DNA of 39,858 nucleotides, taken from a virus. The notes under the pieces are model-generated. The model made no database searches. It was not told the origin of the DNA and saw only the letters and a program-made list of their open reading frames with translations. This document shows, piece after piece, positions 1 through 9,764 of this stretch; the first letter of the stretch is position 1; each line of letters opens with the position of its first letter. The stretch lies in IMG/VR virus record IMGVR_UViG_3300028008_000036, positions 1 through 39,858 of that record; one strand, written 5' to 3'. A program made the translations under genes and the position numbers.

Positions 1-431
1 ATATGGTATGGATCTTCTGAGTCTGGTGTTTGTGGTGTTGCTATTTGCAGCACACCACCCTCGTAATCATCATTTAAAACCAATGAAAACGAGAGTTTTC
101 TGACAGAAAATCTGTTAGCAACCTTCTTGTTATCAACATGCCATTTATAGTAATCATTTACATTATAGTGTGCATATTGAAACTGACCATTATCATATTG
201 ACGAAGGTCGTAATTATACATCTGTAAATTAACATCCATTACATTGTCAAGACAAAGTTTTCCAATATAATGAGATGAATCAATAAACTTAACTTTAGTA
301 GATCTCCAATTAGAAGACTTATTAAAGGTAGATGCTTTCTTCCACTCTCCTATACTATCCAACTCAGCAATCATTTCATTTAATGTTAGATCATCAATTC
401 TAAGTTGACGTACAGAAAAAGTGTCTATCAT
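1..431 (-). CDS. 2OG-Fe(II) dioxygenase, C-terminus cut by window edge
   Basis: Partial gene: the ATG is at 431 and the frame stays open through base 1, giving 143 residues. It resembles the prolyl-4-hydroxylase-like 2-oxoglutarate/Fe(II) oxygenases. The first two metal ligands are visible as W-H98-V-D100, followed about 20 residues later by the typical strand LSFSLVLNDDYEGG. The distal His and the 2OG-binding Arg/Lys should lie beyond the window. Such enzymes couple 2OG decarboxylation to hydroxylation of a protein side chain or small molecule; the substrate cannot be told here. It starts 6 nt after the stop of the next oxygenase gene, so the two are probably co-transcribed. Confidence 0.85.
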   Translation of the reverse strand, partial: MIDTFSVRQLRIDDLTLNEMIAELDSIGEWKKASTFNKSSNWRSTKVKFIDSSHYIGKLCLDNVMDVNLQMYNYDLRQYDNGQFQYAHYNVNDYYKWHVDNKKVANRFSVRKLSFSLVLNDDYEGGVLQIATPQTPDSEDPYH

Positions 432-437
432 TGTTAC

Positions 438-938
438 TTACGCATAATTAGATGACCAAGTGATCCTAGGATCTACATTAGTTCCTCGAAGAACACCATG
501 CTCCAATCCACCTACAAAGAAAATAGCGGTCCTCTCTTTATGAAATGAGCATTCGTCTGGATCTAATGTAAATTGTAGTTTTGATGATCCTTTTGGTAGT
601 TTATTAAAGTAAACTAGACTGAATATCGCACCACCGTGAGTATGTGGTTCTTGATATTGTGTGTTATCATACACATTATACCATATTTCAGTTGCTTTAC
701 ACGTATGTTTGATATGCTCAAGCAGTTTGTTTACAGTAGACTCACACCTATCAGAAAATGTACGAACAATTTGCGGATACTCAATATTATTCAAATAGTA
801 TGAATTTAATGGACTATCTCCAGCAGATTGCCACTCAAATTTACCCCGACCTTCATATTTCTTAGAATAAGTAAGAGCAACCTCTGCTAATTGATCATTC
901 TCTTCTTCAGACAAGAATTCTTCTACTATACTAATCAT
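438..938 (-). CDS. 2OG-Fe(II) oxygenase-like protein (HxH variant)
   Basis: 166 residues from the ATG at 938, whose A is shared with the TGA of the upstream gene (TGATG junction). An in-frame TTG just upstream is less likely to be used. The core reads W-Y-N-V-Y...EPH99-T-H101-G-G...FSLVYF, then F-F-V-G-G-L-E-H147-G-V and R158-I-T-W, which fits the double-stranded beta-helix of the phage/bacterial putative 2OG-Fe(II) oxygenase family with a PHxH motif. His99, His101 and His147 are candidate metal ligands and Arg158 the likely 2OG anchor. The usual HxD acidic ligand is not seen. Substrate unknown. Neighbouring genes include another oxygenase immediately downstream. Confidence 0.75.
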   Translation of the reverse strand: MISIVEEFLSEEENDQLAEVALTYSKKYEGRGKFEWQSAGDSPLNSYYLNNIEYPQIVRTFSDRCESTVNKLLEHIKHTCKATEIWYNVYDNTQYQEPHTHGGAIFSLVYFNKLPKGSSKLQFTLDPDECSFHKERTAIFFVGGLEHGVLRGTNVDPRITWSSNYA

Positions 939-1093
939 CAATCTCCAAAGATAGGAATAATGTTAGTCTTAGCGTGTTCTGTTTTGTTGATGTGTTGCTC
1001 CCACATACTAGCATCATCCAAACTATAGAAGATCGCTTCCTGCTTCGCTTGCCCCTTCTTCTTGTTCTTCATCCATACAACTGCATACTTCAT
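938..1093 (-). CDS. small conserved cyanophage-type protein
   Basis: 51 residues from the ATG at 1093 (MKYAVVWMKNKKKG...), ending in IIPIFGD. The longer open frame to 1192 is rejected because its added N-terminus is hydrophobic noise read from the opposite frame of the upstream gene. The protein is short, with Lys-rich residues 9-16 and the phrase EAIFYSLDDASMWEQH, the style of short conserved proteins in T4-like cyanophages. Function unknown. It overlaps the 3' end of the upstream gene by 71 nt in another frame, and its stop overlaps the start of the downstream oxygenase (TGATG). Confidence 0.6.
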   Translation of the reverse strand: MKYAVVWMKNKKKGQAKQEAIFYSLDDASMWEQHINKTEHAKTNIIPIFGD

Positions 1094-1256
1094 TCCAATA
1101 CTCGCGAAAAACACATAAAGTTGACTGATAACGACCATGACGGCATGATGGGTCAGGTCGATCGATGTAACAAATAGTGATATACCTATCACAAATAAAA
1201 TCTACCCACCCTTTTGTGGCATGATACCGAACTTTCATACCACGAGTGAACTTCAT
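1023..1256 (-). CDS. small conserved cyanophage-type protein, out-of-frame overlap with next gene
   Basis: 77 residues from the ATG at 1256. The first 55 residues (MKFTRGMKVRYH, GWVDFICDRYITICYIDRP, VFREYWNEV) look like a conserved, beta-rich small phage protein seen in cyanophages. The last 20 residues are acidic and low-complexity (MDEEQEEGASEAG) and coincide with the overlap with the next gene, so the tail may be unconstrained. The start codon shares its A with the stop of the upstream gene (TAATG). Function unknown. Confidence 0.65.
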   Translation of the reverse strand: MKFTRGMKVRYHATKGWVDFICDRYITICYIDRPDPSCRHGRYQSTLCVFREYWNEVCSCMDEEQEEGASEAGSDLL

Positions 1257-1453
1257 TAATTAACCTCTTCAAATGGTTGGCGATCTTTGTTCTCTGGTTT
1301 AGGAAGACGGAACATCTCTTTCAAGTCATTCAACTGATTCAACTGACGTTGAAGACCATCAATTTGTGCTTGTAAAATTTGAAAGTTGTGATCGTTGTTA
1401 TTCTGCAACATCAAAAAGTTGTTGATTGCCGATTTGAATTCTTCTTCGTTCAT
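1256..1453 (-). CDS. small coiled-coil protein
   Basis: 65 residues from the ATG at 1453. Residues 1-50 are strongly helical with heptad-like spacing of Ile/Leu (FKSAINNFLMLQNNN, LQAQIDGLQRQLNQLNDL), suggesting a short coiled coil, followed by a Pro/charged tail. It follows the upstream stop by 1 nt and overlaps the next start by 1 nt, so it is translationally coupled in a small-gene run. No family recognised. Confidence 0.65.
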   Translation of the reverse strand: MNEEEFKSAINNFLMLQNNNDHNFQILQAQIDGLQRQLNQLNDLKEMFRLPKPENKDRQPFEEVN

Positions 1454-1454
1454 T

Positions 1455-1703
1455 TTAGTAGCGGTCAGGAATTTGGTGTTCTAGATTGAGAGCAGTGTTA
1501 CCAGTCATGTAGTCTCTAAGAGACATAGCACGACAGTATGCTTTCTTGTGATATTCTATCACATCATCGATGCCAGATAGCATCTCTTCATACGTTTGTC
1601 GTGCTGATACTTTATCATCGTTGAGATAATCATCGATCGCATTTTGCATACGATCTTTGCGCTGTTTTGTATACTCATGTGCCCAGTTGATTTCAGTTGT
1701 CAT
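1455..1703 (-). CDS. small helical protein of unknown function
   Basis: 82 residues from the ATG at 1703 (MTTEINWAHEYTKQRKDR). A longer frame starting with GTG at 1748 is possible but would read far back into the upstream gene; the ATG at 1703 overlaps that gene by only 11 nt. The predicted character is helical and charged (DRMQNAIDDYLNDDKVSARQTYEEMLSGIDDVIEYHKKAY). No known domain is recognised. Confidence 0.65.
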   Translation of the reverse strand: MTTEINWAHEYTKQRKDRMQNAIDDYLNDDKVSARQTYEEMLSGIDDVIEYHKKAYCRAMSLRDYMTGNTALNLEHQIPDRY

Positions 1704-1890
1704 TAAAGTCTTCGTTGCGACGTTTGTCAAGATACTCAATAATTTCACTGCGCCATTCTAACAATTCATGATAGCATTGCTGATCATGTGCGTCTTGACG
1801 TAGTTGATGATCTGGTTTGAGAACGCTCTCGTAGAAGATATAGAATGCATCTTTACGTTTCTCGTGTTTCGTGGTGCTAGTCCAATCCAT
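1693..1890 (-). CDS. small charged protein of unknown function
   Basis: 65 residues from the ATG at 1890 (MDWTSTTKHEKRKDAF). An in-frame TTG three codons upstream is not preferred. The protein is rich in charged and aromatic residues and probably helical (DHQLRQDAHDQQCYHELLEWRSEIIEYLDKRRNEDF). No family recognised. The first gene after the DUF6445-like oxygenase (35-nt gap), it heads a run of tightly spaced or overlapping small genes. Confidence 0.6.
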   Translation of the reverse strand: MDWTSTTKHEKRKDAFYIFYESVLKPDHQLRQDAHDQQCYHELLEWRSEIIEYLDKRRNEDFNDN

Positions 1891-1925
1891 GTGATACAAG
1901 CGTTATAGGGGACAGTGTAGCATGA

Positions 1926-2675
1926 TTACTCCTCATGGTCAACCAGGTCAAAGAAAAATACCTGGAACAACCTACCTTTTTCATAATTAGATGGATCTCC
2001 AAAATACCTTGAAGCACAATGATAGCGTGACGCATCGAAGATAACACATCGATTGTACCAGTTCGCAATCCGGTCGGTCTCTTCCCACATAGAGGGGTCG
2101 TAATGATCTTCCCTGTCTATCGTATCAGTATTTGATCCTAATTCAGTAACACCAGTTTCGCGGTGTCGGTAAAACGAAGTTCCTGTATCGACAGGAGCAT
2201 CAGGAGTCAAGTATACTATGGCAGCATAACTATTGGGACTATCTGTATGTGCTCTCCAAATACTATCTTCAAAAGTACAAGCAAATGTGCCGTTAGAAAT
2301 TACATCGTGAGAAAATACAATATCAGTATCTCTCACAATCATAGTATTTTCCTTATAATCATATTGAAGATAACTTTGCATATCTCCAGTAATAATTTCA
2401 GTCGATGGAATAAACAACCAACGTTTTGGATCAATTTTACGTCCTACAACACGACTAATCATGTCATAATTCCAAACCATATTGCCAACTGCTGCCTTAC
2501 ATCTCCATCCAGGATATGGTTCCCACTTATTGCCATGTTGGCGCATGGTGTCTAAATCAACTTTCGACTTTCCTTCAGTACCACCATTCTCTAAACACTT
2601 AATGGCATGTTTGCGGATTTGATCAGGATTATCGTACCAATCATCAACCACAAAGGTAGAAATGTATGCTGACAT
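1926..2675 (-). CDS. 2OG-Fe(II) dioxygenase-like, DUF6445-type
   Basis: 249 residues from the ATG at 2675. The C-terminal half carries a complete candidate facial triad: H143-T-D145 in RAHTDSPNSYAAIVYL, then H219 in RYHCASRYFG, and R235 (GRLFQVFFFD) as the probable 2OG-binding residue. GTSFYRHRETG follows the first ligands, as in DUF6445-like phage and marine bacterial oxygenases. The N-terminal half (VVDDWYDNPDQIRKHA, EPYPGWRCK) fits the same family. Likely a hydroxylase of unknown substrate. It is flanked by a 30-nt spacer with stop codons in all frames. Confidence 0.8.
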   Translation of the reverse strand: MSAYISTFVVDDWYDNPDQIRKHAIKCLENGGTEGKSKVDLDTMRQHGNKWEPYPGWRCKAAVGNMVWNYDMISRVVGRKIDPKRWLFIPSTEIITGDMQSYLQYDYKENTMIVRDTDIVFSHDVISNGTFACTFEDSIWRAHTDSPNSYAAIVYLTPDAPVDTGTSFYRHRETGVTELGSNTDTIDREDHYDPSMWEETDRIANWYNRCVIFDASRYHCASRYFGDPSNYEKGRLFQVFFFDLVDHEE

Positions 2676-2705
2676 AATTAAAATTTTATTAGTTAGTTAG
2701 GTTAG

Positions 2706-2957
2706 TTATTCGATTTGATCGACTGATTCGATATCACAAACAGGAACTTCATGTTCGCCGCCAATAATGTACCAATGCATCATCTGTCCATGATACTCTG
2801 GATGAGCAGCATGATCTATAGTATACTCTCGTTCACCACAATACAACAGTTCACTTTCATGAATATTGTTCTCCCTCAACATCGCTTGAAGTTGCATATG
2901 CTGCAATTCTATTTTATCAGGAACTTTCATGTGGTTCGATGGACGCTCCGCTACCAT
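2706..2957 (-). CDS. small protein of unknown function
   Basis: 83 residues from the ATG at 2957; an alternative ATG at 2930 gives 74 residues. Neither has an obvious ribosome-binding site, so the start is uncertain. The protein is hydrophilic with several His residues (ELQHMQLQAMLRENN, HAAHPEYHGQMMHWYIIGGEHEVPVCDIE). No family recognised. It begins 9 nt after the upstream stop and is co-directional with the oxygenases. Confidence 0.55.
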   Translation of the reverse strand: MVAERPSNHMKVPDKIELQHMQLQAMLRENNIHESELLYCGEREYTIDHAAHPEYHGQMMHWYIIGGEHEVPVCDIESVDQIE

Positions 2958-2966
2958 AGCACAGTG

Positions 2967-3830
2967 TCAACCCACTGTCAAGTCTTCAAATTCGTTCAAA
3001 CGACGTTGATGGACATAAAAATCTTTGATGTTTCCATCCACACCAATAACATACTCCAATTCATATGTGGATTGACCGACACAGATTGATCTGATATAGT
3101 CTTTCTGCTCACTGGTGATAAGTTCTAGTCCACCCTCGCGAGAGAGCATGTCAAGAGAAGCATCAACCATATTTGTATTCTTAACAGTTTTATTCAAAAA
3201 CAATTCATTATCATTATCAAATATCTCTGGATAACGAAATACTAATTGATATTTGATATCTGTACTATCTGGTAATATAGAAACTACACCCTTAACCATA
3301 TCATATCGAGTCTTAGTCAAGATATTGAGTTTATTCAAAATCTCACTATTACCTACATTAAGTTCATATGTTTTATCATATACAGAAAGTTGTGTAGCAA
3401 CTCCATTAGGATCATATGAAATTCCCACAATCGATGCTTCATAATGATCTAGATCATTAGTAACACTGTCGATTTCTGTTCTACATTCTCTAATGGTTTC
3501 ATTATCAGTTTCTTTAATAAAAGTATCCCAGATGCTAGGATGACTAATAGTATTGAAACGAATACCATTCTTACAATAAAACGATATGATCTCACTATCT
3601 TTATGCTCTACATACAGATATTTGTCAAAGTAATAGTTTGGATCAGTTGTATGTTTTTGATTGTAATTGAATAGTTTGTTGAGTTTATCAATTACAGCAG
3701 AACTTAGTGCTGGCAAATACTTAGAATCAACCAGTGATGTAAATCTTCTAGGCATCATCTCAATTGTTGAGACATGTTCCTGTGTATTCACATTATATTT
3801 TTCTACAATATCGAAATCTTCGGAAAACAT
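2967..3830 (-). CDS. unknown protein within the oxygenase cluster
   Basis: 287 residues from the ATG at 3830, overlapping the upstream stop by 1 nt (TAATG). No signal peptide, membrane segment or known motif is visible. The first 110 residues look helical and polar; residues 130-200 have alternating hydrophobics suggestive of beta strands (ASIVGISYDPNGVATQLSVYDKTYELNVG). The C-terminus reads STYELEYVIGVDGNIKDFYVHQRRL. It could be a virion or fibre-accessory protein given its place between oxygenase genes downstream of the fibres, but this is only positional inference. Confidence 0.65.
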   Translation of the reverse strand: MFSEDFDIVEKYNVNTQEHVSTIEMMPRRFTSLVDSKYLPALSSAVIDKLNKLFNYNQKHTTDPNYYFDKYLYVEHKDSEIISFYCKNGIRFNTISHPSIWDTFIKETDNETIRECRTEIDSVTNDLDHYEASIVGISYDPNGVATQLSVYDKTYELNVGNSEILNKLNILTKTRYDMVKGVVSILPDSTDIKYQLVFRYPEIFDNDNELFLNKTVKNTNMVDASLDMLSREGGLELITSEQKDYIRSICVGQSTYELEYVIGVDGNIKDFYVHQRRLNEFEDLTVG

Positions 3831-4177
3831 TATTCGTTAGTTGCTATGATTTGACCGCTAGTATTAGCAAGAGAATAAAAAATATAATTCTCTGGCGTAG
3901 ATGTTGATGCTTGACTTTCTGGTAGATTTGACTCCAGAAAGTTTAACATATCAGTAATATCATCAACTTCAGCAAAAACATGTTCTGATTGAGTCAGACA
4001 AGTCCACATATCAAGTGGAAGAATATCTTTATAAAGTTGCATTGATGCATTGATAGCATCAACATCAGAACTATTATTCCATCCTGTTGATCTGAGATAC
4101 AAGACAGCTTTACCTTTCAAGGTAGCATATCGCTCAATAAAATTATCAAGATAAAATGCGTCGTAGGATGTGTTCAT
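3830..4177 (-). CDS. unknown small protein within the oxygenase cluster
   Basis: 115 residues from the ATG at 4177, which overlaps the stop of the upstream oxygenase by 4 nt (ATGA). The longer frame would begin with TTG at 4195 inside that gene and is not preferred. Mostly helical and acidic (FIERYATLKGKAVLYL, NASMQLYKDILPLDMWTCL, VFAEVDDITDMLNFLESNL), without recognised domains. Coupling on both sides suggests that it and the 287-residue protein are translated with the neighbouring oxygenases. Confidence 0.65.
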   Translation of the reverse strand: MNTSYDAFYLDNFIERYATLKGKAVLYLRSTGWNNSSDVDAINASMQLYKDILPLDMWTCLTQSEHVFAEVDDITDMLNFLESNLPESQASTSTPENYIFYSLANTSGQIIATNE

Positions 4178-4689
4178 TTTAGTATTAGTTTCCAAGCAAT
4201 AGTTACTCTCAATCCAGAAAATAATCTAGATGTTCCCTCTGCCATGTGGGGTGTGTTACCGGGGAAAAGAACAGCAGAGTTTGGTATAGGATTTTGATAA
4301 AATAATTCTTCTTTGTCAAGAAGAAATATAGTCTTCCCGCCCCACTCTGGTCTCCAGTTAGAATTTGCATAATATAATAGGGTTCTCCCGTTTGGTTCAT
4401 ACCAATCAACATGGAATTCTCCTTGAGTACCAAATGTATGCCCATTAGCATACACATCATACAAATCATAATCTTGTTGGGTTTTTTCCCTAATGATATT
4501 TAGAAGATAATCAGAAAAGTATGTGTCATCTAAAAGATCCATACGCCAAAATGGTATGCCAAGAGAATTGTTATTCTCATCTACATGTGATCCATGCCCA
4601 TGTCTCCATCGTGGTTCATTTATTTTAGATGTAATTCTTTCTACTACATTAAAAGAAAAAAACCTGTCATATTGTATAATATCATTCAT
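4174..4689 (-). CDS. 2OG-Fe(II) dioxygenase (PKHD/P4H-like)
   Basis: 171 residues from the ATG at 4689. It shows a full ligand set: EF-H93-V-D95-WYEPNGRTLLYY, then W-GGKTIF, FPGNTP-H148-MAEGTS and R161 in LRVTIAWKL as the 2OG anchor. GGKTIF and the FPGN-x-x-H motif are typical of prolyl-4-hydroxylase-like enzymes. Residues 70-90 (YDLYDVYANGHTFGTQG) give the strand before the HxD. Substrate unknown. ATGA overlaps on both ends couple it to another oxygenase upstream and to an unknown gene downstream. Confidence 0.9.
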   Translation of the reverse strand: MNDIIQYDRFFSFNVVERITSKINEPRWRHGHGSHVDENNNSLGIPFWRMDLLDDTYFSDYLLNIIREKTQQDYDLYDVYANGHTFGTQGEFHVDWYEPNGRTLLYYANSNWRPEWGGKTIFLLDKEELFYQNPIPNSAVLFPGNTPHMAEGTSRLFSGLRVTIAWKLILK

Positions 4690-5162
4690 ACTTCAATCCA
4701 ACATACGAATACATCTCTCCTACCACATTTTACCTCATTTACTCTATGAAGTAAATTGCCTGGATATATTACTGCTTTGCCTTTAGATAATTTAATACTA
4801 CGTTCATTCTCTATCACTAACTCACCGCCATCATAATCATCATTAAGAAAACAAGTCATACTATAATCTGATCTCACACCACCACAAGGATTAGCATCAT
4901 AATGATTATCATACATGCCCCCAACATCATACTTGACAAAATATATCTGTGATATTATTGACGCAGTGAATGGCAATTTGTTTGCTATTATATCACGACA
5001 ATACATATTCAAATCTAAATTACCAGGTCCATCAAACACAGTCTGACAGACCTTATTAGCATCTAGATTACTTTTCGTACCATCTTCAAATGTTAAGTAT
5101 TTGAAGTATTGTGTGATATGTGATATCTGCTCATCATTTAGTAAATCAATCTCACATATCAT
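4686..5162 (-). CDS. 2OG-Fe(II) dioxygenase, PKHD type
   Basis: 158 residues from the ATG at 5162. It has a textbook PKHD-type oxygenase core: YFVKYDVGGMYDN-H87-Y-D89, MTCFLNDDYDGGELVIE, KGKAVIYPGNLL-H139-RVNEV, and R149 before VFVCWIEV. The GGEL strand and the YPGNLLHRV distal motif match the PiuC/YbiX-like hydroxylases, although this protein ends at the catalytic domain. Substrate unknown. Its start overlaps the stop of the tail-fibre-chaperone-like gene (ATGA), giving a direct translational link between fibre assembly and the oxygenase genes. Confidence 0.92.
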   Translation of the reverse strand: MICEIDLLNDEQISHITQYFKYLTFEDGTKSNLDANKVCQTVFDGPGNLDLNMYCRDIIANKLPFTASIISQIYFVKYDVGGMYDNHYDANPCGGVRSDYSMTCFLNDDYDGGELVIENERSIKLSKGKAVIYPGNLLHRVNEVKCGRRDVFVCWIEV

Positions 5163-6106
5163 AGTTCATTTTCATCGACAAAGAATCTATCCCAATCTAC
5201 TTCAACATCCTCATTAATCTTCAATTCTTTCATCATATCCAAGATTTTCTGTGTAACTTTCTTAGTAGGAGCAATTCCTCTTTGTGCCAGGTTGAACATG
5301 TTGACCTCTCTATTCTTAAAGAAATCGGTTGATGCTTGAGAGTCATGCTTAACCCATTGATTGGTATCATCAGCATCCATAAACGCAGGAGCATCTGTTA
5401 CACCATCATCCAACTTTCCATCTACATACAGTTTCCTATATTTTGCTGGGTCGATTGGAAATTTAAGATTGTATGTATACTTAAAATATTCCAATCCAGA
5501 GTTATTAAATTCTGCATTTGTTGGAGCAGGTGTAGAGTTGTCTCTAATCCACTTTCTCCACTTAATCCATTCTGCTTTTTCGCCTTCGTAAGTATCTTCA
5601 ATATCAGGAAGAATTCTCCAATCAGACAGAGTTAGCATCTCACGCTTCTGCCTTTTTAGTTTATACATACGCTGCTCATAGAAAGCAACTTCTTTATCAA
5701 CACCAGCAACTAAGGTATCAACTTTAAGGTTTTTAACCTCAACTACAACCGCAAAGAATGTTTTAACTAATTCATATAATTCCTTTGCCTGTTCATTTGT
5801 AGCACCGGTAAAGGAATATGTTTTCAAGTAATTGCTTTCAGTAGCAAAATCATACTTTACTCTTTTCCTTTGGCAGAAATATGTTCCATCATTAAAGTAT
5901 TGAAAGAACTCAAGTAAATCTTTGTCGGTATGCCAAAATTCGTCAACTGATGTGCTTAAGAATTTTTCTTTAATTTCAGCATCCATCTTATATCGCTTAC
6001 CATTATATTCGGTAGGCAGCAAAGTAAATCCTGAGTCAGGACTTCCACCTTCTAGTATGGTATCGTTTGCGAAATCAACTTGAATAAGAGCTATTTTTTG
6101 TTCCAT
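5159..6106 (-). CDS. tail-fibre assembly/chaperone-like protein
   Basis: 315 residues from the ATG at 6106. Residues 152-188 carry the signature of phage tail-assembly chaperones, R-x-x-(M/L)L-x-x-(S/T)DW-x-x-L-P-D...W-x-x-W/YR-x-x-(I/L)RD (here REMLTLSDWRILPD and WRKWIRD). A predicted helical stretch (residues 104-160) precedes it. The family typically helps fold or trimerise tail fibres and sits just after the fibre gene, as here, with one oxygenase gene between. The C-terminal 130 residues (FPIDPAKYRKLYVDGK, FMDADDTNQWVKHD) are not recognised and may determine fibre specificity. Confidence 0.6.
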   Translation of the reverse strand: MEQKIALIQVDFANDTILEGGSPDSGFTLLPTEYNGKRYKMDAEIKEKFLSTSVDEFWHTDKDLLEFFQYFNDGTYFCQRKRVKYDFATESNYLKTYSFTGATNEQAKELYELVKTFFAVVVEVKNLKVDTLVAGVDKEVAFYEQRMYKLKRQKREMLTLSDWRILPDIEDTYEGEKAEWIKWRKWIRDNSTPAPTNAEFNNSGLEYFKYTYNLKFPIDPAKYRKLYVDGKLDDGVTDAPAFMDADDTNQWVKHDSQASTDFFKNREVNMFNLAQRGIAPTKKVTQKILDMMKELKINEDVEVDWDRFFVDENEL

Positions 6107-6112
6107 GGGTCG

Positions 6113-6778
6113 TTAATTACGTTTAATGTACCATCCTGTCAAAATATATTTATCTTCAGTCAAAACAGTATTGCCTTTATGTGTATGTGTATATCCTGCT
6201 GGCCAGATAACTACCGTGCCTGCCGTTGGTTTAATTCTTCTTCTTTGATACAAAAATTCTGTCTCTGCTTCACCATCTGGCATATCATTTAGATATATCA
6301 TCCACACTATTTCTCGCATAGAGTGTGCTTCATCAGAATCTTCATAATGCCAAAGATGATACCCACCACCAGGAGGTGTTTTTTGTATTTTGATGTCAGA
6401 AGAAATTAAACTAGTTTTAGTTAATGATTGATATTGTGAGATGTAGTGTAATACACATGATCTTAGTATTGAATTGATCTTAAGTACCAAATCTCTGTTG
6501 GCATAATTTAATATAAATGCCATATCTTTTCTGTTCATCTCACCGCCATATAAATCTTGCGATTTAATAACACGATCAGCACTATCTACTTGAGATAAAT
6601 CTAAACTTGGATTAATAACACATGCTTGTTCAATGGTATTGTCAATGAACTCACGTAGTTCATCACACACTGGACGGGGCATAAAGTTTGGCCAAACACC
6701 AATAAAATCATCAAATTCAACTTTGGTTATATTAGGGTCAAGCATTAATTCATGCGGTCTATAATCAGGTAATTTCAT
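6113..6778 (-). CDS. 2OG-Fe(II) oxygenase with HxE-type ligand motif
   Basis: 221 residues from the ATG at 6778 (MKLPDYRPHELML); the longer open frame reads into the upstream fibre gene and is rejected. The core has PPGGGYHLW-H144-Y-E146-D, IVWMIYLNDM, ETEFLYQRRRIKPTAGTVVIWPAGYTHTH200, and K210-YILTGWYI as the likely 2OG anchor. The layout matches phage P4H-like oxygenases in which the acidic ligand is Glu (H-x-E) rather than Asp, although Asp147 is next to it. It lies 1 nt after the stop of the 980-residue collar fibre, so it is coupled to fibre translation. Confidence 0.88.
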   Translation of the reverse strand: MKLPDYRPHELMLDPNITKVEFDDFIGVWPNFMPRPVCDELREFIDNTIEQACVINPSLDLSQVDSADRVIKSQDLYGGEMNRKDMAFILNYANRDLVLKINSILRSCVLHYISQYQSLTKTSLISSDIKIQKTPPGGGYHLWHYEDSDEAHSMREIVWMIYLNDMPDGEAETEFLYQRRRIKPTAGTVVIWPAGYTHTHKGNTVLTEDKYILTGWYIKRN

Positions 6779-6779
6779 T

Positions 6780-9722
6780 CTAATATGCTTTGATGATATA
6801 TTTAGTCTTATGGAATGGATTGATAATTGGTACTTGAATCTGTGGTGACATTGCAACACTAGGAACCGGTTTAGCAAAACTACTATTCCAGTTGAACGTA
6901 GCATCTGTCATATCCATAAAAATATCTGCTTGGGTAAATACCAGGTTAAGTTGAGTCACACCATTTCCTAGTCCACTTGTAATGGTGCCAGCACCACCAC
7001 TATTACCGGAACTAAAATCAAGTTGAGCATTCTGAACAATATCTTCTGTGAGGAAGTGAGCATGTGCATTTGTAAATCCACTAGTGGGAATATATTGCTC
7101 AATTGTAAATCTAGATGTTTCAGTATCAACAACAGCAGCTGCTGCGTTTTGGGTAGCGCCACCAGTAGATTGTAACGATGCCCCTGCTAAACCACTAACA
7201 GGAGATATCCACCAGGTCATAAAATCAACTGTTGCTTGATCATCATCATTCTCTGGTCCAAAATCAGATTGACCAGTGGCTCCACTTGGAACACTCACAT
7301 TAACTTCCCAATTAGTTGGCAAATTAGCAGCTGCCCAATCTTTCAAATTAAAACCATTGCCATAATACAATTTCATCTCATTTTCAAAAATTCCAAGACC
7401 ACCAATAAAATCTGCCCATTTACCAGCAATATCATCAGAACTACCAACTTGATTTCTATAAGTACTTCTTCCAGTGCTACCACCAAACATAGCCCTACCA
7501 GCAGGAGGACCCCATTTAATTAATGGATCTCCACCATCACCATCAGGAAGAGCGGCAACATATGCATGATCATGTAAAGGAACATTCACCACAACATCTT
7601 CCAATGGACCAATTATACCACTAACTTGACCAGCAACAGAAAATGTAATATCATCTGTAACTGTTTCAAGACCAGATAATCTCACTGTGCCTAAAGTAAA
7701 AAATTCACTATTTACTCCAGTAGTTCCGGTTCCCTGGATTTGTTCTAGTGGTGGAGAACCCAAAACATCTATTTTATCGAAATACCAATATCCACCTTCA
7801 GCACCAACGCTAAGAATAGATCCACCACTATCAATTGGTAGTGAAGTAGAATTACCTCTACTAGCATCAACTTGACCAGTTCCACACAGTCTTCTATTTC
7901 TATAGTCAGGAATATTAAAACTGGATCCAGACCCACCATACGTATATTGAATTACATCAAATAACATAAAATATTGAGTAGTGTCTAAACTCTGACCTTC
8001 GCATTTAATAAATCCTGGATATCTAGAGCTCAAATCTCCGTCCAAATCACCGTATCCAACTACTGTATTTTCTTTAAGGATAGGTATCACAGTGCCAATA
8101 GGATAACCATCAAATTTTGCTATTTTCTTACTATACCAAACACCTAAATTATCTGGTGGTAGAGGTGCTGAGGCATAAGTTGTCGCTGTCCAAGTAAAAG
8201 GATTGTTCAAAGATCCTGTGCCCACTGTAACTACCGTAGACGCCCCCGTATTAAGATTTACTGATGTTAATAGTGTCAATGAGAATGACGTATTCACATT
8301 AGGATCAAAAGTTCTAGGACCAACAACAGGAGTATCAGAATCAATAGAGATTAAACATCCGTTTGTAGCACTAATAGTAATCGGTATATTGATGTCACTT
8401 ATTGTAACTTGAGAACTACTCACATATGTGCTTGGAACTTGATTAGTTATATCAAGTGGAGGAGTAAATATTGCATCACCATCTGGTCCACTACCAGTTA
8501 TAACAGTCCATGTAGATATAGTACGTTCTCCTACTTTAATCTGTAAAGTTTTAGGAGTATTAAATGCAGTACTAGATTGTAAATAAATTGTTAACTTATC
8601 ACCATTTTGCACAGATGTTGGAAATACACCAATAGATCCTGCATTAACTTTCACACGAACTAAACTAGAATTCGTAGAAACTACCTCAACAGGAACAGAT
8701 AAACCAGCTGTCAATCCAGTAATACCAGCAGGTGGTTGCGTATCCGATCCAACTAACACATTGGTTAACTGACCAGTTTTATCTTGGAATGAAAAATTAC
8801 CAGGTGTATCATCATCAGCAACACCAGTAGTAACTGTCCAGGTTGATCCGTTTGCAGTATCAGCAATAGACAAATCTGTAAATACAGGTGTTAGGTTAGC
8901 ATTAGAACTTGGAATTCTTAATTGTAGGTAATCTCCATTAGATACAGTTCCACTAGTGGACCAAGCAGCACCAAGTAATACATCAAACCCATTAACATTA
9001 GTGCTAGTATTACCAGATACAGATAAAGCATATTCACCTGTGCCACTAACACTAATAGGACCGTCTTCACTCATTCCTTGTACTGTTAGAACTTCACTAT
9101 AGATCATAGTATCTGGTTCTACCGGATTTAAATCAGTAAAATTTGGAAATGGTGTGGCAAAATTACCTGGGACAGCTTCATTTTGCACATCCCATGATTC
9201 AGTTGCTGTTCCAATCTCCAGAACAACTTTCATAATTTGAGTGTAAAAAGTAGAAGTTCTTCCTCTTACCTGTATCCTTGCGCCGTTCTCAACTGTTACA
9301 GCAGTAGTATTATCAATCCAACCAGTATCCCAACTTCCATTACCATCGTAATCAATACGCATCGCAACATAATCAGTAACAGGAGCTCCTCCAGGTATAG
9401 GAACATTAGATGAAATACCTACAGCTGCCTGTGTAGTTGGTGTTAATCCACTAACAACAACAATTGATTCTCCTGGTCTACTACCATCAGCAAATGTATA
9501 CAAAGTATCAACTTCAGCACCCTCAAATCCCTCCATGGGATATGGATCTGGAGTGAAATCCTCCTTGATCGTAATAATCAACCAATATTGAAGTAAGTCA
9601 CCAATTTGAAGAGTGACTGTTTGGGTTGTATCCCAAGAAGAAGGTGCCTTAAATTTAAACTGAACGTAATCGCCTTCGGACACGTAAAGTGGTTCATCAT
9701 TTGGTGCAAATGAAAATGTCAT
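6780..9722 (-). CDS. tail fibre with Ig-like repeats and phage tail-collar domain
   Basis: 980 residues; an AGAGGA ribosome-binding site precedes the ATG at 9722. Residues 1-530 are Thr/Ser/Gly-rich beta repeats with motifs such as VSNGDYLQLRI, VQNGDKLTIYL and LQIKVGERTISTWTV, resembling bacterial Ig-like modules. Residues 540-615 form a phage tail-collar domain (YPIGTVIPIL, GFIKCEGQSLD, TYGGSGSSFNIPDYRNRRLCG). Two HxH motifs (HDHA near 717, HAHF near 886) may bind metal in the trimeric tip, as in T4 gp12/gp37. The C-terminus KYIIKAY is shared with the other two collar proteins. Probably a host-binding fibre. A GATAAATA late motif lies 18 nt upstream. Confidence 0.85.
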   Translation of the reverse strand: MTFSFAPNDEPLYVSEGDYVQFKFKAPSSWDTTQTVTLQIGDLLQYWLIITIKEDFTPDPYPMEGFEGAEVDTLYTFADGSRPGESIVVVSGLTPTTQAAVGISSNVPIPGGAPVTDYVAMRIDYDGNGSWDTGWIDNTTAVTVENGARIQVRGRTSTFYTQIMKVVLEIGTATESWDVQNEAVPGNFATPFPNFTDLNPVEPDTMIYSEVLTVQGMSEDGPISVSGTGEYALSVSGNTSTNVNGFDVLLGAAWSTSGTVSNGDYLQLRIPSSNANLTPVFTDLSIADTANGSTWTVTTGVADDDTPGNFSFQDKTGQLTNVLVGSDTQPPAGITGLTAGLSVPVEVVSTNSSLVRVKVNAGSIGVFPTSVQNGDKLTIYLQSSTAFNTPKTLQIKVGERTISTWTVITGSGPDGDAIFTPPLDITNQVPSTYVSSSQVTISDINIPITISATNGCLISIDSDTPVVGPRTFDPNVNTSFSLTLLTSVNLNTGASTVVTVGTGSLNNPFTWTATTYASAPLPPDNLGVWYSKKIAKFDGYPIGTVIPILKENTVVGYGDLDGDLSSRYPGFIKCEGQSLDTTQYFMLFDVIQYTYGGSGSSFNIPDYRNRRLCGTGQVDASRGNSTSLPIDSGGSILSVGAEGGYWYFDKIDVLGSPPLEQIQGTGTTGVNSEFFTLGTVRLSGLETVTDDITFSVAGQVSGIIGPLEDVVVNVPLHDHAYVAALPDGDGGDPLIKWGPPAGRAMFGGSTGRSTYRNQVGSSDDIAGKWADFIGGLGIFENEMKLYYGNGFNLKDWAAANLPTNWEVNVSVPSGATGQSDFGPENDDDQATVDFMTWWISPVSGLAGASLQSTGGATQNAAAAVVDTETSRFTIEQYIPTSGFTNAHAHFLTEDIVQNAQLDFSSGNSGGAGTITSGLGNGVTQLNLVFTQADIFMDMTDATFNWNSSFAKPVPSVAMSPQIQVPIINPFHKTKYIIKAY
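6799..6805 (-). promoter_or_regulatory. late-promoter-like CTAAATA
   Basis: Minus-strand CTAAATA, 21 nt upstream of the HxE oxygenase gene, within the last codons of the collar fibre gene. It could start a late transcript for the oxygenase cluster. Weak by itself, because similar heptamers occur in coding sequence. Confidence 0.3.
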
Positions 9723-9747: not shown

Positions 9748-9764
9748 AGTATTTATCTATGATG

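Follow-up and report, generated by a model that had tools for sequence, protein, structure and literature searches.

Why should a phage carry six genes for 2-oxoglutarate (2OG)-Fe(II) oxygenases side by side next to its tail fibre genes? The question is raised by the virus contig IMGVR_UViG_3300028008_000036, the whole 39.9 kb of which is referred to here as the window. Over window positions 4248-25000 (82% of a 25-kb query), the contig is 99.5% identical to Synechococcus phage ACG-2014j (Kyanoviridae, Potamoivirus). An initial annotation took the six oxygenase genes, labelled here A (6113-6778), B (4686-5162), C (4174-4689), D (1926-2675), E (438-938) and F (1-431), to be a single system. This does not hold, as only A, B and C are conserved at the fibre locus and D, E and F belong to a reshuffled region. 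The six genes are two different things: a conserved module, in which A, B and C accompany a fibre gene and its chaperone gene, and the contents of a variable region. All genes treated here are carried on the minus strand, and those of the module, with a motif ahead of it, are as follows:

9750..9757, minus strand: late-promoter motif GATAAATA, 28 nt upstream of the fibre ATG (a sequence motif only).
6780..9722, minus strand: gp12-like short tail fibre, 980 aa, the proposed substrate; Collar PF07484 at residues 569-610 (Pfam); phrog_4924.
6113..6778, minus strand: oxygenase A, 221 aa, HxE...H...K, prolyl-hydroxylase-like; phrog_61; PF13640.
5159..6106, minus strand: putative tail-fibre assembly chaperone, 315 aa; phrog_4697; PF16778 (Phage_tail_APC) in 9/17 homologues.
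4686..5162, minus strand: oxygenase B, 158 aa, PKHD/PiuC type, HxD...H...R; PF13640.
4174..4689, minus strand: oxygenase C, 171 aa, HxD...H...R, PHD2/P4H-like predicted fold; phrog_274 (misnamed 'DNA endonuclease V').

These genes are tightly packed. The collar fibre gene (9722-6780) ends 1 nt before A (6778-6113), as had been noticed initially, and a 6-nt gap separates A from the chaperone gene (6106-5159). B and C had both been described as joined to the chaperone gene by ATGA overlaps; this is correct for B (5162-4686), but C (4689-4174) overlaps B and not the chaperone gene. The product of 5159-6106 matches phrog_4697 at 5e-133 and follows a fibre gene; PF16778 is found in the homologues counted above and not in the window protein itself. 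Its domain family and its position suggest a tail-fibre assembly chaperone.

The constancy of this order was surveyed at loci round the chaperone gene from annotated phages and IMG/VR, with reading frames profile-searched for A, B, C and the chaperone. The order fibre-A-chaperone-B-C is annotated in S-CAM4, ACG-2014e, ACG-2014i, Syn1, S-RIM44, S-PM2, S-RSM4, S-CAM3, S-CAM1, S-RIM32, S-H9-2, Sf-FP1, Sf-CH11 and Sf-CH1b, so that nine named Kyanoviridae genera are covered; in S-RSM4, one added small gene separates the chaperone gene from B. The long-chaperone loci (n = 163) form 75 clusters at 90% identity, which are phylogenetically non-independent. In 69 of the 74 decidable clusters, A immediately precedes the long-chaperone gene (-71 to +13 nt); it is absent from the other five, and one further cluster is undecidable. 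B and C are both present after the chaperone in 52 A-bearing clusters, A stands alone in six, and where the flanks permit a decision B and C were never seen apart from each other or without A. A stays between fibre and chaperone down to 21-37% chaperone identity, with other neighbours changing. Across seven complete genomes, 22 of 61 2OG genes are located within 3 kb of the chaperone gene, compared with 1.9 expected if the chaperone is placed at random (a count that is likewise non-independent). Conserved synteny, a check set beforehand, is thus strongly positive for A, B and C; it is negative for the DUF6445 gene, whose homologues are elsewhere, and for F. As a control, 27 short PF16778-type chaperone loci (14 clusters), including the type behind the ACG-2014j long tail fibre, were inspected, and none has A directly upstream. 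The generalization that every fibre chaperone has a 2OG partner is therefore false, as the short PF16778-type chaperones have none directly upstream.

The module is usually followed by two genes whose function is unassigned and which are kept beside it:

3830..4177, minus strand: T4-GC742; phrog_4883.
2967..3830, minus strand: T4-GC743; phrog_4851.

GC742 and GC743 (window 2967-4177) still adjoin the chaperone gene where B and C are missing. In one module with A but without B and C, a tryptophan-halogenase homologue (PF04820, 5e-31) is encoded shortly downstream (L081:8407-9519), and halogenase-like frames also occur in four loci of the same kind (L092-L095).

All six genes proved to be genuine 2OG-Fe(II) oxygenase genes, as initially claimed, on the basis of Pfam matches to PF13640, PF13759 and DUF6445, with C backed by its fold and its HxD...H...R residues. 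The PF13640 stretches of the window are at 30-182, 4234-4425, 4695-4940 and 6128-6370. A, B and C each have the iron triad HxD/E...H and the basic 2OG-binding residue of the superfamily, and the double-stranded beta-helix is indicated for A and C by AlphaFold and Foldseek and for B by Pfam and PDB sequence matches. Structure prediction, which had been proposed as a check for each oxygenase, was applied to A and C, and both models have this fold.

Oxygenase A matches PF13640 and phrog_61, and its HxE...H...K residues are invariant in 14/14 orthologues. Its sole relevant PDB sequence match is the prolyl hydroxylase of PBCV-1 (E 0.005). The AlphaFold model of A is of moderate confidence (pLDDT 72.5), and Foldseek places PBCV-1 vCPH first (TM 0.56-0.68), followed by PHD2 and Pseudomonas putida prolyl 4-hydroxylase (P4H). 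The closest fold to this moderate-confidence model is thus a P4H, and the nearness of the predicted fold to the collagen prolyl hydroxylase of a chlorella virus hints at a prolyl-hydroxylase-like enzyme. Like A, vCPH (PDB 5c5t, 5c5u) is a viral 2OG enzyme; it differs in being an algal-virus protein with HxD, whereas A has HxE, shares about 16-19% identity with it and is encoded in a phage fibre operon that has no collagen-like tract.

The closest relatives of B are different. PiuC is a bacterial iron-uptake-associated protein. B scores 50.8 bits against Pfam PF13640 and is a clear sequence relative of Sbal_3634 (3dkq, 2e-12) and PiuC (9ghl, 1e-10) with HxD...H...R residues, which are invariant in B and in C (14/14 orthologues each). 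Similarity to PiuC and these residues identify B as of PKHD/PiuC type; unlike PiuC, its gene overlaps a fibre-chaperone gene, and the B of the window does not have the C-terminal region past the catalytic core. In both the window and ACG-2014e, B is without the C-terminal ~70 aa seen in most genera.

For C, the PF13640 match is below threshold (8e-5). Because the fold and the HxD...H...R residues confirm this match, we count C as a 2OG oxygenase. Its AlphaFold model (pLDDT 84.5) has PHD2 and P. putida P4H (4j25, 4iw3) as best Foldseek matches (TM up to 0.77), although identity to these is only 12-17%. The name 'DNA endonuclease V' attached to phrog_274 is wrong: Pfam finds only 2OG and one weak DUF match in C, and its predicted fold is PHD2/P4H-like. 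In ACG-2014j gp036 (L005:9922-10497; isolate Syn7803US23), the C gene is apparently frameshifted near residue 150 relative to the window. The nearest folds to the A and C models are protein hydroxylases, which hints at compatibility with a protein substrate.

The remaining three oxygenase genes are in the variable region:

1926..2675, minus strand: D, DUF6445, oxygenase-like, outside the conserved module; phrog_1644 'minor coat protein'.
438..938, minus strand: E, 2OG oxygenase; PF13759/phrog_81.
3..431, minus strand: F, 2OG oxygenase, cut by the window edge; PF13640.

The order of genes here is reshuffled even among close relatives. D matches DUF6445 in Pfam and has homologues at unrelated places in other phages; its 'minor coat protein' label is doubtful because it has an HxD...H...R pattern and a weak match to phrog_274, the family of C. 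E matches PF13759 in Pfam and phrog_81. F matches PF13640; the full-length gene in ACG-2014j encodes 186 aa and groups in our tree with enzymes near gp3/uvsY/uvsW of S-RIM2 and Syn19. In ACG-2014j (L005:13768-16179) and ACG-2014e (L007:13300-16827), genes for a restriction endonuclease and a DNA methyltransferase come after the variable-region 2OG genes. The density that first drew attention to the locus does exceed chance: with about ten 2OG genes in the 192 kb of ACG-2014j, six are within 6.7 kb (P ~4e-5, random placement). ACG-2014j gp008, annotated as 2OG-like, is a cell-wall hydrolase by Pfam and was left out of the counts. 2OG genes are plentiful throughout such phage genomes, and only three of the six are conserved at the fibre locus.

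Has the block simply been carried along since fibre, chaperone and oxygenases were joined once, with no functional coupling? When 60 proteins were placed in a maximum-likelihood tree, each of A, B and C formed one branch apart from most other cyanophage 2OGs (support 100/98 for A, 98/94 for B and 98/95 for C, the last including a few relatives from other genome places), and one origin would be enough to account for this. The order of genera within the three branches broadly matches, and for this reason the A/B/C block appears to have been inherited together. Passive linkage does not readily explain why the region directly downstream is reshuffled among genera, why the module persists through exchange of the fibre body, or why B and C come and go together, and we regard it as very improbable. 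The three oxygenases have pairwise dN/dS values of 0.09-0.24 (chaperone, 0.08-0.29), and by this measure they are under purifying selection.

When would these enzymes be made? In transcription order, a 4063-aa giant fibre is followed by two smaller collar-type proteins, a 495-aa structural protein and an 1859-aa structural protein that contains a PA14 domain and poly-Gly tracts; next come the 980-aa gp12-like fibre and the oxygenase region. The published cyanomyovirus late-promoter consensus is NATAAATA (PMC2984593); in the window, GATAAATA precedes the ATG of the 980-aa fibre by 28 nt and TATAAATA precedes the giant fibre by 41 nt. ATAAATA occurs within 80 nt upstream of the fibre gene in 11 of 21 orthologues, and most of the others show a CTAAATA variant. 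In seven genera, no late-promoter motif was detected ahead of A or B. Since the gaps from the fibre gene through GC743 are at most 6 nt, A, B and C are probably transcribed with the fibre, late in infection. The codons for the conserved DKY residues of A contain a further ATAAATA (window 6147-6153), which in 5/7 genera tested is 43-47 nt ahead of the chaperone gene; this may be an internal late promoter or a by-product of the conserved residues.

On balance, we favour the explanation that A, B and C together form a module for fibre maturation, hydroxylating the fibre during assembly. Fibre, A, chaperone, B and C would be made together late in infection from one operon, and A would hydroxylate residues, probably prolines, of the new fibre in its unfolded or chaperone-bound state. 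Where B and C also occur, they would hydroxylate the same client further, and the outcome would be a steadier fibre trimer or tuned receptor binding. The nested presence of the genes, with B and C restricted to A-bearing loci, agrees with an ordered series of modifications of one client. A fuller form of this proposal, in which up to three 2OG oxygenases make up a dedicated phage pathway that hydroxylates the receptor-binding fibre stepwise (A, then B and C) with the chaperone, is put forward more tentatively. Four points here are inferred: action on protein, the fibre as substrate, the order of the steps and the benefit to the phage.

Where on the fibre such modification might occur is suggested by its variation. 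In the S-RSM4 and L170 types, most of the fibre body has been exchanged for a Gly-rich one and A, B and C are kept. The A-linked fibre types examined all keep the collar region and the C-terminus (the last ~47 residues), and because these are still shared after the body swap they are the first candidates for modification sites. Neither segment serves as a marker of A, as both are also present in the A-less fibres of Sf-FR1 and L164. The C-terminal motif [FY]H[KR]xK, present in 34 of 39 A-linked C-termini, was rejected as a mark of A-modified fibres as YHRxKY also occurs in three fibres without A. A collagen-like substrate was rejected on account of the short Gly-X-Y runs across the structural proteins of the window, none of which exceeds seven repeats.

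The same fibre exchange could instead indicate that the oxygenases act on the chaperone or on a different virion protein encoded in the operon, such as the giant fibre or the Gly-rich protein, and not on the gp12-like fibre, given that A follows the chaperone even where the fibre body is mostly exchanged. As the chaperone occurs without A in five clusters, and the collar region and C-terminus of the fibre are kept in the A-linked types examined, we consider this distinctly unlikely.

Several observations weigh against fibre maturation by A, B and C. The five clusters without A do have fibre and chaperone, and in two of them the fibre is nearly full-length and homologous. No fibre motif that tracks with A was found. 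The window fibre has no collagen-like tract, its Gly-X-Y run being only three repeats long, and A has an invariant HxE among its orthologues in place of the HxD typical of P4Hs. Ranking nearest folds within the 2OG superfamily is weak evidence for a substrate, and the A model is of moderate confidence. Relatives of A, B and C are also found away from fibres in other phages. On this last point, which the initial annotation had named as one that would count against it, the result is divided: members of the same families are elsewhere in other phages, but the orthologues of A, B and C stay at the fibre.

Alternatively, the target could be a protein of the host, such as EF-Tu or a ribosomal protein, with the fibre operon serving only for late, strong expression. 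The structure of P. putida P4H, whose fold is close to those predicted for A and C, was determined as a complex with EF-Tu, and other 2OG genes of such phages are found beside head, replication or metabolic genes. This explanation is unlikely, as it accounts neither for the fixed slot of A between fibre and chaperone at 21-37% chaperone identity nor for the other chaperones of such phages that have no oxygenases.

Cyanophage 2OG genes and their abundance were already known (PMC3037559, PMC9602691 and PMC9964418). PMC3037559 proposes nitrogen/2OG signalling and DNA repair for them, PMC9602691 generic hydroxylation and PMC7824862 secondary metabolism. A metabolic or signalling role, through lowered 2-oxoglutarate levels, nucleic-acid repair or synthesis of a small molecule, has been put forward for cyanophage 2OGs in PMC3037559 and PMC7824862. 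A bulk metabolic role leaves the fixed place in a fibre operon, the nested set of three families and the protein-hydroxylase folds unexplained, and for A, B and C it appears quite improbable. In the survey PMC9301287, a viral prolyl 4-hydroxylase is mentioned beside a remark that viral tail fibres can include collagen, and its use is called cryptic. Full-text literature searches, with most subscription papers outside their coverage, returned no paper raising the constant fibre-A-chaperone order.

To our knowledge, and in part from the description in PMC9608196, no oxygenase stands between fibre and chaperone in T4 gp37-gp38, Mu Tfa or Pam3 gp24-gp25. These systems do share with the present locus a fibre followed by a dedicated intermolecular chaperone and a PF16778-type domain (PMC9608196). 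The module is a new arrangement of known parts.

Other fibre neighbourhoods of such phages also contain oxygenases, and many of the 2OG genes are located away from fibres. In P-SSM2, a PF16778 chaperone is followed by a PiuC-like 2OG and then a fibre. S-RIM2 and Syn19 have a phrog_274 oxygenase beside tail-fibre-region genes, in S-RIM2 directly ahead of a Gly-rich 'tail fiber assembly' protein. S-RSM4 (L117, record 88.7-95.0 kb) has a second row of ~8 2OG genes, flanked by Gly-rich proteins, between the giant tail-fibre gene SRSM4_146 and the neck gene g13. In Syn9 (L012, record 30.3-43.1 kb), two Gly-rich 'tail fiber assembly' proteins are followed by two tryptophan halogenases and then ~8 2OG/DUF6445-type genes.

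The abundant 2OG oxygenase genes of marine cyanophages are unexplained and usually filed under host metabolism. The fixed tie to fibre and chaperone would shift at least three 2OG families to virion assembly and host recognition, and the gp12-like fibre is a precise place in which to seek hydroxylated residues. If A, B and C do mature the fibre, this maturation would be tied to the oxygen, iron and 2-oxoglutarate of the host cell, and tailed phages would have a virion-protein hydroxylation system in principle comparable to the hydroxylation of collagen.

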